DNA of 45,219 bases from Natroniella sulfidigena (lineage in GTDB: Bacteria > Bacillota > Halanaerobiia > Halobacteroidales > Halobacteroidaceae). Below the pieces are notes generated by a model, which saw nothing but the letters and a program-made list of their open reading frames with translations, made no database searches and was not told the DNA's origin. Shown here one piece after another: positions 21,243-26,011 of this stretch (the stretch's first letter is position 1; each line of letters starts with the position of its first letter). The stretch lies in NCBI RefSeq assembly GCF_023223645.1, contig NZ_JALKBY010000019.1:1-45219 (forward strand), given 5' to 3'. A program made the translations under genes and the position numbers.

Positions 21243-22577
21243 TTAATAGACTTTCAAATATTCGTCTAATTCCCACTGGTGAACCTGAGTTCGATAAATA
21301 TCCCACTCTATCTGCTTAGCTTCAACAAAATGTTCTAGTACATGCTCTCCTAATGCATCTTGAATTAATTCATTTGCCAATAACTCTTGAACTGCTTCAT
21401 TAATATTACCTGGTAAACTTTCAATTCCTGCTTCTTCCTTTTCTCCTGTTTCCATAGCAAAGATATTTTCTACTATCTCTTTAGGTGGTTCAATTTTATT
21501 CTTGATTCCATCCAATCCAGCTTTTAACATCACAGCAGTTGCTAGATAAGGATTTGCAGAAGGATCTGGATTTCTCATCTCTACTCTAGTCCCAGCTCCT
21601 CGAGCAGCAGGAATTCTAATCAACGCACTTCGATTCGAAGCAGACCACGCCAAATAAACTGGAGCTTCATAACCTGGTACTAGCCGCTTATAAGAATTAA
21701 CTGTTGGATTAGTTATAGGAGTAATTGCTTTAGCATGCTTTAATAACCCTCCAATATAATAATAAGCTGTTTGGCTTAACCCTAACTCATCATCTGGGTC
21801 ATAGAATACATTCTCTCCATCTTTAAATAATGACTGATTCATATGCATTCCAGAACCATTTTCTCCAAAGATTGGTTTTGGCATAAAGGTAGCATGCAAT
21901 CCATGTTCATTAGCAATCGCCTTAGTAACAAATCTAAAAGTAGCAATATTGTCTGCTGTCGTTAATGCATCAGAATATTTAAAGTCAATCTCATGTTGAC
22001 CAGGAGCTACTTCATGGTGTGAAGCCTCCATCTCAAAACCCATCTTCTCTAAAGCTAATACAATATCTCGACGAGCATCCTGACCTGTATCAGCTGGCCC
22101 TAAATCAAAGTAACCACCTTGATCATTTGTAACTGTAGTCGGATTCCCATCTTCATCCTTTTCAAATAAGAAGAACTCTGGTTCCGGGCCAACATACATC
22201 TCATAACCCATCTCTGCTGCTTCTTCTAATGCTTTTTGCAGTACATTTCTTGGCCCGCCAATAAACGGTTCTCCATCTGGAGTATAAACATCACAGATCA
22301 ATCGAGCAACTGTCCCACCAGTTTTTGGCCTCCACGGAAAGATAGTAAAAGTATCATAGTCAGGCTTTAAATACATGTCAGATTCTTGAATTCGAGTAAA
22401 ACCATCTATCGATGAACCATCAAACATTATCTGTCCATCCAAAGCTTCCTCCAACTGCTCTACCGTAATTGCTACATTCTTAATAACTCCTAAAATATCT
22501 GTGAACTGTAACCTAATAAACTTAACATCCAACTCCTCTGCTTGTTGTAATACATCTTCTTTACATAATTGACTCAT
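21243..22577 (-). CDS. glnA: Type I glutamine synthetase (GSI-alpha)
   Basis: A 444-residue glutamine synthetase that fixes ammonia onto glutamate with ATP. Seen: [18 protein letters not shown] (metal ligands), the [13 protein letters not shown] segment, [29 protein letters not shown] and [12 protein letters not shown]. Length is that of the feedback-inhibited GSI-alpha form of Gram positives, and no adenylylation loop of the beta form is apparent. TAAGGAGGAATAAAAATG gives the start. A GlnR-type MerR gene lies directly upstream, as in the Bacillus glnRA locus, and the promoter between them carries 11-bp phased boxes. Confidence 0.96.
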
Positions 22578-22603: not shown

Positions 22604-22704
22604 GTGTAAGTTTTATGTTAACTTTGTGTTAATTATAATCTTTGAGCTTTACTTTGTCAAGAGAAAAACATAAAAAGTTTTTATTCTTAACATAAAGTTT
22701 ACAT
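22604..22704 (-). promoter_or_regulatory. glnA promoter with 11-bp phased TTAACA box arrays
   Basis: Minus-strand TTGACA (22660-22655) and TATAAT (22637-22632) have a 17-bp spacer. Immediately downstream of the -10 are three boxes, starting on the plus strand at 22604 (GTGTAAG), 22615 (ATGTTAA) and 22626 (GTGTTAA), exactly 11 bp apart. Upstream, 26 bp beyond the -35, are two boxes in the opposite orientation, TTAACAT at 22687 and TTTACAT at 22698, again 11 bp apart. The proximal array covers the start of transcription, suggesting repression. Confidence 0.8.
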
Positions 22705-22709
22705 TTAAG

Positions 22710-22949
22710 TCACTTATCCTTCAACTTTCTTTTGATCCCAGCAAGGTTTAACCCCTGCTCCAATAAGCTTTTAATCTCTTTTAACTTTTCAATATCCTCT
22801 TGAGAATAAAGCCTCTGGTTCCCTTGGGTTCGTTCAGGATCAACCAAGCCAGCTTTTTCATAATAACGGACCCGCCGAGCTGTTAACTTAGTCTTCTTCT
22901 CAGCAACACCAATAGAATAAATTGAAGTTGTAGGATTATCTCCAGTCAT
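22710..22949 (-). CDS. GlnR-like MerR-family regulator lacking the C-terminal tail
   Basis: A 79-residue protein that is almost entirely a MerR winged-helix DNA-binding domain: YSIGVAEKKTKLTARRVRYY (helix-turn-helix), GNQRLYSQEDIEKLKEI (wing and helix 3) and LEQGLNLAGIKRKL. This matches the GlnR/TnrA branch by memory of conserved residues (SARxIRYYE, EGNxRLFS, EQGVNMAGIK). Bacillus GlnR has about 130 residues, with a C-terminal tail that senses glutamine-bound glutamine synthetase; that tail is missing here. It lies directly upstream of glnA. AGGAGGGG precedes its ATG. Nitrogen control is inferred from family and position. Confidence 0.82.
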   Translation of the reverse strand: MTGDNPTTSIYSIGVAEKKTKLTARRVRYYEKAGLVDPERTQGNQRLYSQEDIEKLKEIKSLLEQGLNLAGIKRKLKDK

Positions 22950-22984
22950 TATATCCCCTCCTAACTGTATTTTATTTGTTTAAT

Positions 22985-23218
22985 TTAAGTTGATTTATAA
23001 TGCCTCCCCTGATTAAGCATCGCATATGATGTCAGCTTCTTGTACTCTTTTTGGGGTACATACCACTCACCCTTAACCTTCTTCGCTGCCAACTCTCCAT
23101 TTTTAACTCTATTTTCTAGTACAATTAGAGGCTTACCCACCAAAATAGCAACCTCTTTAAGATTCATATATTTTCTACCCTTATATTCCATTTTAGATCT
23201 TTCTATTTCAGTACACAT
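22985..23218 (-). CDS. Small excisionase-like HTH protein
   Basis: A 77-residue basic protein with one winged-HTH of the excisionase/HTH_17 type: YMNLKEVAILVGKPLIVLEN (helix-turn-helix), then NGELAAKKVKGEWYVPQKEY (wing). No sensor domain is present and no integrase or phage gene is nearby. It is the first gene of a two-gene operon with the GlnR-like regulator (35 nt gap). Its own promoter has the 11-bp phased boxes, so it may be an autoregulated nitrogen regulator. GGAGGGG precedes the ATG. Function is inferred from fold and context only. Confidence 0.72.
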   Translation of the reverse strand: MCTEIERSKMEYKGRKYMNLKEVAILVGKPLIVLENRVKNGELAAKKVKGEWYVPQKEYKKLTSYAMLNQGRHYKST

Positions 23219-23240: not shown

Positions 23241-23352
23241 ATGTTATCTTCATGTTAACTATATGTTAATTATAAACCTTGTATTCGGCTTTGTCAAGTT
23301 ATAATACCATTTATTTTCAGTTTTGTTCAGGATTATACCATGAAGATAACAT
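23241..23352 (-). promoter_or_regulatory. Promoter of the small-regulator operon with phased boxes
   Basis: Minus-strand TTGACA (23297-23292) and TATAAT (23274-23269) are 17 bp apart. Three boxes, ATGTTAT at 23241, ATGTTAA at 23252 and ATGTTAA at 23263, are exactly 11 bp apart and abut the -10. Upstream are ATACCAT at 23335 and ATAACAT at 23346, 11 bp apart, opposite orientation, 37 bp beyond the -35 (one 11-bp step further than at glnA). ATAACAT is also part of an inverted pair with ATGTTAG at 23356. Confidence 0.78.
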
Positions 23353-23422: not shown

Positions 23423-23569
23423 GATAAATAGCTTAAGTTTAAGGCTGAGGAAATGGTTTTATTACGAAGGGTTTTTATAAACCCGAAGGTGAGTTTAAGT
23501 CAACCATTAAAAACATAAGGTCTTAGCTCTTACTTAGACTTAGACTCAAACTTAAACTGAATTGTAATT
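23423..23569. repeat. TTAAG-family intergenic repeat, copy E with 41-bp module
   Basis: Nearly identical to copy B: GATAAATAGCTTAAGTTTAA at the left, module at 23450-23490, and CTTAGACTCAAACTTAAACT at the right. It occupies the gap between the small-regulator promoter and the terminator of the Amt-chemoreceptor gene. Confidence 0.82.
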
Positions 23570-23575
23570 AACCCA

Positions 23576-23609
23576 CAAAAAAGTCCGAACCATAATGGCT
23601 CGGACTTTT
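23576..23609 (-). terminator. Terminator of the Amt-chemoreceptor gene
   Basis: AAGTCCGA (23581-23588) pairs with TCGGACTT (23600-23607), with CCAT/ATGG extending the stem inside. On the minus strand a run of six T follows. It starts just beyond the stop codon. Confidence 0.8.
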
Positions 23610-23611
23610 GC

Positions 23612-25888
23612 TTAAACATTAAAACCTGCTATAGAAACCTCTATCTTCTCTACCATCTCAGCTAACGTCTGTGAAGACTCCATTAAATCCTGTGAGATTT
23701 GATTAATCTCATCTGTATCATCTTTAATCTTTTCCCCTCTAATAGACAACTCTTGTGTATCAGCAGAAGTCTGCTGAATATTAACTGAAGTATTAAGGAT
23801 ATAATCCTCAATCTCCTCAAAAGATTCTCCTGCATCTTCAATTATATCTTTACCTTCCTCTGCTTTCTCTTCAATATCAAGTACAGCTTGCAAACTCGAT
23901 TCTGATTTATTTAATGTCTCTCTAATTAAATTCGCAATCTTATCTGTAGCTTGATTTGTATTATCTGCTAAAGCCCTAATCTCATCAGCTACAACCGCAA
24001 ACCCTTTCCCAGCTTCGCCCCTACGAGTTCTTTCAGAACTCTCCGTAGTAAAACTTGCTCTTGCTGCCTCAATACTAGCATTCAAAGCTAATAAATTAGT
24101 CTGTTCTGCTATATTAGTAATAAAATTAACAATTTCTTCTATTTCAGCAGAATTATTATTCAACTGATTGATCAAATCAACTCCTTCTTCTATTGAGCTA
24201 TTGATCTCTTCCATCTGCTTAATAGCAGCAGACAAACTATCACTCCCCAACTCAGTCTGTGCTGCTGCTTGCTGAGCCAAACTACTGACCTGTTGACTAC
24301 TCGCTGAAATCTGCTGAATACTAGCAGCCATTTCAGTCACATTTCCAGCAGTACTTTCAGTGATCGAATTACCTTTTTGAGCTGAAGTAGATAACTCTTG
24401 ACTAGAGTTAGATAAGATCTCAATCAATTCAGTTAAATCAGTAATTAATGAACTGACCCGTTGATTAGTCCGATTGAAAGTACTTAACAAACCTGCTTCT
24501 CCATCATCAGTCGTATCCAATCTAGTACTAAAATCTCCCTGAGCCATCTTCTTCAATCCCACTAACACCTTCTCAATCGTCTCCCAACTCGCTGCTCCAA
24601 AATCTGAATAAGTACTAGCACCATGCTCTGCTAAATCTAGCCCTTCTATCTCTTCTTTCTCCGAAACTCTTAATCCAATTACCAGATCAATCCCCTTGAA
24701 TAATAAGAAAGCTGTCAGAAATGTCCAAATAGCTACACTGACTACCCCTCTAGCTTGAATCAATAATAACTCAATTCCTCCACCATAAAAATATCCTCTC
24801 TCTACTGCTAATAAACCGACCATCAAAGTACCAAAGCTACCACAAACACCATGAACTGCAATTGCTCCTACTGGATCATCAACATGTAACTGATCAATTA
24901 ACTCAATTGCAAAAATCACAAGAACTCCAGCTAAGCCACCAATTATGATCGCTCCTAAATTACTAACATTTGCCGTTCCTGCTGTAATGCCTACCAAACC
25001 AGCTAAAGCACCATTTAAAGTCATACTGACATCCGCATTACCATATTTAATCCAGCTAGTAATCATCGCCAAAGTTGCTCCAGTAGCTGCTGATAAGTTG
25101 GTCGTTACTGCAATTTCAGCAATACTCAAATCAGTCCCTGCCACTGTACTACCTGCATTAAAACCGAACCAACCAAACCAAAGAATAAAGACTCCTAAAG
25201 CAGCCATCAATAAGTTATGACCTGGAATGGCATTGATTGAGCCATCTTCATTATACTTACCCAACCTTGGCCCGAGTACAATTGCTCCTGCTAATGCTGC
25301 CCAGCCACCTACTGAATGAACAACGGTTGAACCAGCAAAATCAATCATTTCTGATAACCAACCACCACCCCAGATCCAATGACCAACAACTGGATAAATA
25401 AACCCTGTAATCACAATACTATAGACTAAATAACCACTAAACTTTGTCCTGCCAGCCATTGCTCCAGAGACAATTGTTGCTGCAGTCGCTGCAAAAACAG
25501 CTTGAAAGATCCAAAAAGCACTGATTGGAATCTCTAAGCCTAAATGCTCAAATCCCCCACTCAAAAAGAAACCTTCTAAACCAATGAAATTATTCCCTGC
25601 TCCAAACATAAAGGCAAATCCACAGATCCAATAAATCAATGAACCAACTGAGAAATCCATTAAATTCTTCATAATAATATTCCCTGTATTCTTAGCTTGA
25701 CTAAAACCTGCTTCTACCATTGCAAAACCAGCTTGCATAAAGAAGACCAAAAATGCTGCCAGCAATGTCCACATTGTGTCTATTGCTACCCTTTCTGCTG
25801 CTCCTACTTCCTCTACTGCTTCAACAGTAATAGGTAACGCTCCAAGTAGAACCAATACTACCATTAATATAATTACCTTTTTCTGCAC
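23612..25888 (-). CDS. Ammonium transporter fused to methyl-accepting chemotaxis domain
   Basis: A 758-residue fusion. Residues 1-24 are a signal peptide and ~30-405 a complete Amt channel closely similar to the adjacent amt product, with DFAGSTVVH (Asp183, pore His191) and [11 protein letters not shown] (pore His346) intact. After a short linker, ~437-490 is HAMP-like and ~490-758 is an MCP signalling hairpin with [19 protein letters not shown] and [17 protein letters not shown] at the tip. A 12-residue insertion (612-623) separates these tip strands. Known Amt fusions include histidine kinase outputs; here the output would be CheA/CheW. Proposed role: ammonium chemoreceptor or transceptor. 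GTG at 25888 has AAAGGAG at better spacing than GTG at 25897. Confidence 0.9.
24020..24055 (-). repeat. Palindromic insertion inside the Amt-MCP coding sequence
   Basis: These 36 bp encode the 12 extra residues [12 protein letters not shown] at the chemoreceptor tip. On the coding strand they form GAGTTCT-GAA-AGAACTC with an outer CTAC/GTAG pair and a 3-nt bulge. The flanks GTTTTACTACGGAG and CGTAGG resemble the intergenic module (GTTTTATTACGAAG, and CCGTAGG in the copy at 35754-35783), with compensatory stem changes. It looks like an in-frame insertion of the same palindromic element. Confidence 0.6.
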
Positions 25889-25910
25889 CCTACTCACTCC
25901 TTTAAGTCAT

Positions 25911-26011
25911 ATGTTAGGTTAATGTTATGTTAGTGTTAATTATAAGCCAAACAGAGATATTTATCAAGGGTTTAGATAATTATTTTTCACTCTTTTACAT
26001 TATTTTAACAT
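25911..26011 (-). promoter_or_regulatory. Promoter of the Amt-chemoreceptor gene with phased boxes
   Basis: Minus-strand TTGATA (25967-25962) and TATAAT (25944-25939) have a 17-bp spacer. Boxes ATGTTAG at 25911, ATGTTAT at 25922 and GTGTTAA at 25933 are exactly 11 bp apart and abut the -10. Two opposite-strand boxes, TTTACAT at 25994 and TTAACAT at 26005, begin 26 bp beyond the -35, the same distance as at glnA. Confidence 0.8.

Follow-up and report, generated by a model that had tools for sequence, protein, structure and literature searches.

The glutamine synthetase gene glnA and its neighbours in the window (the whole 45,219-nucleotide stretch of Natroniella sulfidigena DNA under analysis) probably belong to an order-wide regulon of the GlnR type that works through direct-repeat operators, with a tail-less GlnR paralog encoded beside glnA as its brake and a 77-residue protein as a Natroniella addition. 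The elements of this system are plain to see: the genes, a triple 11-bp array, the conservation of that array and of the gene set behind it, the base-reading residues, and the paralog.

Two small regulatory genes beside glnA

The minus-strand gene order is amt-MCP fusion, 77-aa protein, 79-aa protein, glnA, nadE, amt, P-II. The genes that matter most here are:

21243..22577, minus strand: glnA, type I glutamine synthetase, 444 aa (Pfam, structure matches)
22710..22949, minus strand: tail-less GlnR-like protein, 79 aa, a MerR_1 winged helix-turn-helix (wHTH) only (ORF, Pfam, solved-structure match, alignment)
22985..23218, minus strand: BldC/Xis-like wHTH protein, 77 aa, genus-restricted (ORF, Pfam, homolog search, structure model)
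23612..25897, minus strand: ammonium transporter fused to an MCP signalling domain (amt-MCP), 761 aa, the third array target

Two minimal HTH genes ahead of glnA had been predicted, and two there are: minus-strand open reading frames of 79 and 77 codons' worth of protein. Against solved type I synthetases, the GlnA of the window scores 687 bits with 7tdp and 635 bits with 4lnf. Natroniella acetigena (G001; same genus as the window's genome) has a locus with identical gene order and arrays, and in comparison with it dN/dS is about 0.20 for the 79-aa and about 0.20 for the 77-aa protein, the mark of purifying selection.

The 79-aa protein is a bare MerR_1 domain (Pfam, 78 bits). Its best solved relative is GlnR 4r4e (75.8 bits), and the closest structures are three of GlnR, followed by TnrA. 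Alignment shows it stopping at the end of the DNA-binding domain, where the linker and tail of its full-length relatives start; five orthologs likewise stop there. The motif XG(E/D)XSRF, by which the GlnR tail binds feedback-inhibited glutamine synthetase, is absent. This is the GlnR-like protein without a C-terminal tail that had been foreseen; because it is the synthetase-binding tail that is missing, the protein is by sequence a tail-less paralog and not GlnR proper. Its base-reading residues R25, R28 and Y29 are invariant and match R28, R31 and Y32 of Staphylococcus aureus GlnR, which read TGTNA (TNACA on the other strand) (PMC9249791). The 79-aa protein thus appears equipped to read GlnR half-sites, and would be expected to bind them. 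Its gene adjoins glnA in six of the eight genomes of family f1 (three genera) and in none of the five of family f2; half of the array-bearing genomes of the order do without the protein. The tail-less proteins lie on one side of a single branch in 92% of bootstrap trees, with moderate branch support (80/82) and a long branch for G002. The pair had been expected to be conserved near glnA: this holds within the genus, but beyond it the tail-less gene stands alone, in three genera.

The 77-aa protein is harder to place by sequence: its HTH_17/excisionase match is weak (Pfam, 14-17 bits; the PHROG excisionase match is weak too), and a sequence search of solved structures yielded nothing meaningful. 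Its predicted fold is a winged helix whose nearest matches are RacA, BldC and Xis (AlphaFold, mean pLDDT 74, core near 85-90), and the model matches BldC with Z 6.7 (1.8 Å over 51 residues), which falls below the Z of 8 needed to rule out a match through a fold that is simply widespread. As modelled, it resembles the BldC family in being a stand-alone MerR-like wHTH with no effector domain. The TGTNA-reading residues are not seen in it, and BLASTP finds no match between it and the 79-aa protein, so there is no sequence sign of common ancestry. It is found in two genomes only, the window's own and that of N. acetigena; searches of phages, plasmids, viral contigs and 398 genomes of the phylum returned no homolog but the window's own. 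(Weak matches in G004, G006, G007 and G056 are to generic HTH_17-like proteins outside nitrogen loci, and were set aside.) The original prediction of an excisionase-like partner lacking phage context has held up: the fold is BldC/Xis-like, no phage genes are seen among the Pfam-scanned ORFs, all of which are housekeeping, transport or nitrogen genes, and no integrase or mobile element is linked to the 77-aa gene, whose neighbours are nitrogen and housekeeping genes.

A full-length GlnR-like paralog of 141 aa is encoded elsewhere in the genome (L071 3708-4133; G000 C31), behind purR and not with glnA. It has a GlnR-like DNA-binding domain with the base-reading R, R and Y retained, as in the 79-aa protein, and a conserved tail motif, RGLTSLYPVSNR (GLTSLYPVSNR), whose likeness to the SRF motif is only loose. 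(Several f6 relatives have tails of the KGDLSRF type.) A full-length GlnR-like protein is present in every f1 and f2 genome, and such proteins occur in the class beyond the order. Because it is present throughout f1 and f2 and keeps R, R and Y, while the tail-less and 77-aa proteins are patchily distributed, sequence comparison makes the full-length protein most likely the ancestral reader of the array. It had been suggested that the two small proteins divide sensing and binding between them. There is no need for such a division, because a full-length GlnR-like protein with a tail exists in the same genome.

The amt-MCP fusion is a putative ammonium chemoreceptor. Similar long open frames are present in G003, G005, G006 and G007, each with a triple array; in N. 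acetigena (L008, about 503-862) the chemotaxis part looks interrupted by approximately 350 bp of foreign-looking sequence. A strong terminator hairpin lies 3' of amt-MCP in the window (23577-23609), and a long imperfect inverted repeat with 20-nt arms, 80% complementary, occupies 23430-23558, between amt-MCP and the pair operon. An Rfam match to rli42 at the terminator was rejected (28 bits against a gathering score of 80, probably just the hairpin); the Rfam scan returned nothing else.

Direct-repeat arrays in the window and across the order

Three promoters of the window share one design:

23269..23297, minus strand: pair core promoter, TTGACA (23297-23292), 17 bp, TATAAT (23274-23269)
23241..23268, minus strand: pair operon array of three 11-bp direct repeats, TAACATATAGTTAACATGAAGATAACAT, immediately following the -10
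23336..23352, plus strand: pair promoter, upstream arm, a reversed direct pair with one mismatch, TACCATGAAGATAACAT
22632..22660, minus strand: glnA core promoter, TTGACA (22660-22655), 17 bp, TATAAT (22637-22632)
22604..22631, minus strand: triple 11-bp direct repeat of glnA, TAACACAAAGTTAACATAAAACTTACAC
22688..22704, plus strand: glnA promoter, upstream arm, a reversed direct pair, TAACATAAAGTTTACAT
25939..25967, minus strand: amt-MCP core promoter, TTGATA (25967-25962), 17 bp, TATAAT (25944-25939)
25911..25938, minus strand: triple 11-bp direct repeat of amt-MCP, TAACACTAACATAACATTAACCTAACAT
25995..26011, plus strand: amt-MCP promoter, upstream arm, a reversed direct pair, TTACATTATTTTAACAT

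The pair promoter had been said to carry the same box array as that of glnA, and so it does: the two are homologous, 74% alike over 62 nt, with triple 11-bp repeats in a common layout of TTGACA, 17 bp, TATAAT and then immediately TAACATATAGT TAACATGAAGA TAACAT. A pattern scan of the whole genome finds three copies of the triple array, before the pair, glnA and amt-MCP. All three promoters carry 11-bp direct repeats; the palindromic operator TGTNA-N7-TNACA is not among them. The upstream pair lies 27 or 38 bp above the -35, helically phased with the promoter, and the gaps separating it from the array-plus-10 element are 51, 62 and 51 bp. (The second glnA of the genome, at G000 C28:125592-126593 (L002), has a different promoter with two direct half-sites at 11 bp, one of which forms the -35 TTGACA.)

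Is the operon autoregulated, as was also predicted? The array does lie in its own promoter, and from that operator position the tail-less paralog is probably autorepressed. Autoregulation of the tail-less gene is not general, since in G002 and G005 no array stands in front of it.

The array reaches far beyond the pair. Allowing up to one mismatch, 12 of the order's 13 genomes carry the triple array, against one of 46 other genomes of the class; the reversed pattern, serving as control, has zero matches in the same scan and over 31 genomes, which puts the array far outside what chance would give. Behind it are glnA, amt, amt-MCP, nadE, an ORF of 60-68 aa, regulator genes and a few transporters. 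(The 60-68 aa ORF sits between array and glnA or amt in four genera (L078 3878-4084; L051 2916-3098; L098; L119); the two copies scanned have no Pfam match, and the ORF may resemble CooT.) Most array-bearing genomes of the order are without the 77-aa protein, and half of them have no 79-aa protein, so the array is not the private target of the pair; the 77-aa protein, missing from all but two genomes, cannot be what maintains it. The claim that the pair is the regulator of the arrays finds no support in this distribution, in which the tail-less gene stands beside glnA in only part of f1 and none of f2. The proposed two-protein nitrogen regulator of new design is thus only partly borne out: the tail-less paralog and its companion survive, but the array predates the pair and extends beyond it.

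Same-orientation half-site pairs in f1 peak at a single spacing. The 32 f1 regions upstream of glnA and amt hold 48 same-orientation TNACA pairs at 11 bp (the mean for other spacings is 1.8), and a single region has the canonical GlnR palindrome; the f2 regions gave 14 direct pairs and four palindromes. When a set of 31 regions was separately compared with shuffled sequence, it held 32 pairs at 11 bp where 0.4 were expected. (A technical note: these upstream-region counts are not all independent, for neighbouring genes in one cluster overlap.) A second class of promoter, in f2 and f4 (G008, G009, G011, G012, G014), has the palindrome TGTNA-N7-TNACA with a third half-site 11 bp on that coincides with the -35. 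(In B. subtilis, glnRA has a palindrome and then a half-site in the -35, a point of background to which no weight is given here.) Linkers of this class are far closer to those of the triple arrays than random linkers are, which points to one reader for both. In f1, as the sequences read, the outer palindromic arm is gone and the direct pair alone remains. The best reading of these comparisons is that the operator of one reader changed from palindrome-plus-half-site to direct repeats.

The upstream reversed direct pair, TGTNA-N6-TGTNA, occurs (with at most one mismatch) in 19 of 35 distinct array promoters, the promoters having been collected with up to two mismatches, so that a few may be false; shuffled sequences give 3.9, with a maximum of 9. 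Its start positions group between -64 and -67 relative to the -10; further ones fall near -57, -77 and -88, in steps of about a helical turn. It is absent from many array promoters, and it occurs in genomes without the tail-less protein.

A probable self-limiting brake and its rivals

How the arrays might be bound, what repression and signal might consist of, and what the 77-aa protein may contribute can be sketched as follows. 1) The operator unit is TNACA, the half-site typical of GlnR (TGTNA when read on the opposite strand), three of them head-to-tail, one helical turn (11 bp) apart and right behind the -10, where bound protein would block RNA polymerase. 2) The 141-aa protein would be activated as usual by glutamine-inhibited glutamine synthetase. 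3) The 79-aa protein is a duplicate minus linker and tail, and should read the same half-sites without autoinhibition and without synthetase contact. In GlnR the tail holds back DNA binding until feedback-inhibited synthetase releases it (PMC6191146, PMC9249791), and a natural tail-less copy should for that reason bind without synthetase: with its tail removed, S. aureus GlnR(1-87) has a higher affinity for DNA than the full-length protein, at 9.9 versus 75 nM (PMC9249791), and Paenibacillus polymyxa GlnR minus 25 C-terminal residues binds more tightly and loses its response to synthetase (PMC6191146). GlnR also exists mainly as a monomer, and its dimer interface is small (PMC9249791). 4) Because its operon has the same operator, the 79-aa protein would be made when nitrogen runs short and repression is lifted, and would then settle on the arrays, acting as a self-limiting brake, independent of synthetase, on glnA, amt-MCP and its own operon. 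5) If neighbouring protomers bound head-to-tail in the manner of BldC, whose minimal MerR-like domain stands head-to-tail on direct repeats (PMC5859096), the 79-aa protein and full-length GlnR could occupy one array together. 6) The 77-aa protein is a recent Natroniella addition, and probably joins, stiffens or antagonises the GlnR-like assembly on the array.

It counts against this account that the GlnR/TnrA-DNA complexes described in the literature consulted are all symmetric dimers on palindromes, and that the co-occurrence of the array with a GlnR-like protein lies mostly inside one order, close to a single phylogenetic event. In a bolder and rather doubtful extension, GlnR-family domains would form head-to-tail assemblies on direct repeats in place of symmetric dimers, with two opposite arms flanking the promoter, full-length, tail-less and BldC-like subunits mixing, and only some subunits contacting synthetase.

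Might another order-wide regulator read the triple array, leaving GlnR-like proteins to the palindromic and -35 type sites? GlnR is known from palindromes only, reading of the array by GlnR-like proteins is deduced, and the array is confined to one order while full-length GlnR-like proteins range wider in the class. Yet half-site and linker are common to the palindrome-bearing promoters, the array stands before genes of the classical GlnR regulon (compare PMC3412718), and class genomes without a close GlnR-like protein have no array; we regard such a regulator as highly improbable. That the 77-aa and 79-aa proteins are jointly the nitrogen regulator, the former covering the 11-bp repeats as Xis or BldC would and the latter giving specificity or signal, is very unlikely: glnA and amt have the arrays in front of them even where the 77-aa protein is missing, and also where both are, and the half-site belongs to GlnR. 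The two genes do share one operon and an overlapping history in Natroniella, and the fold of the 77-aa protein resembles that of proteins whose protomers are spaced about one DNA turn apart (BldC on its long site, RdfS as proposed; PMC5859096, PMC11963761). It may yet help in that genus.

The upstream arm suggests yet another role for the tail-less protein, that of a TnrA-like activator binding the reversed pair once GlnR repression is lifted, and turning up glnA, amt-MCP and its own operon under nitrogen limitation while the downstream triple is left to full-length GlnR. P. polymyxa GlnR has sites on both sides of its nif promoter, activating from the upstream one and repressing from the downstream one (PMC6191146), and the upstream pair, found in about half of the array promoters, is in phase. 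Many array promoters nevertheless lack it, it is also found where the tail-less protein is absent, both arms have the same half-sites and offer no basis for separate readers, and the core promoters lie close to consensus and require little activation. Activation of this kind is a quite unlikely alternative to the self-limiting brake.

Comparison with known systems

What is new here is a variant of the GlnR system: direct-repeat, often two-armed operators, a tail-less paralog and a genus-specific BldC-like companion. If the account is right, it shows an operator and its reader moving from mirror to head-to-tail symmetry, with some promoters still holding both arrangements. It also provides a natural "GlnR without sensor", so that the role of the tail becomes testable through two paralogs in one cell. 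From the operator, the nitrogen regulon of halophilic anaerobes can be clearly predicted; a literature search found no study of it.

With the MerR-like GlnR and TnrA of Bacilli the system shares the base-reading residues of the wHTH, the TNACA half-site, a regulator gene that adjoins glnA and stands under its own type of operator, and a regulon of glnA and amt. It differs in its 79-aa protein without linker or tail, in its 11-bp direct repeats over the -10 and start in place of a 17-bp palindrome, and in the extra full-length GlnR-like gene elsewhere in the genome. The P. polymyxa nif promoter is likewise flanked by GlnR-type sites (I and II), but these are of palindrome type and 118 bp apart, whereas here direct-repeat arms lie near the promoter (PMC6191146). 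BldC of Streptomyces offers a minimal wHTH without effector domain, direct repeats at about one helical turn, and a fold match to the 77-aa protein; in the whiI site its repeats, AATTNNNN(C), are spaced at 9 bp, it is a developmental regulator, and the arrays here persist in genomes that have no BldC-like protein. Excisionases and recombination directionality factors (Pukovnik Xis, RdfS, Tn916 Xis), together with RacA, share the fold of the 77-aa protein and, for excisionases, a weak PHROG match; its gene, unlike theirs, sits in a nitrogen operon, away from any integrase, phage or ICE.
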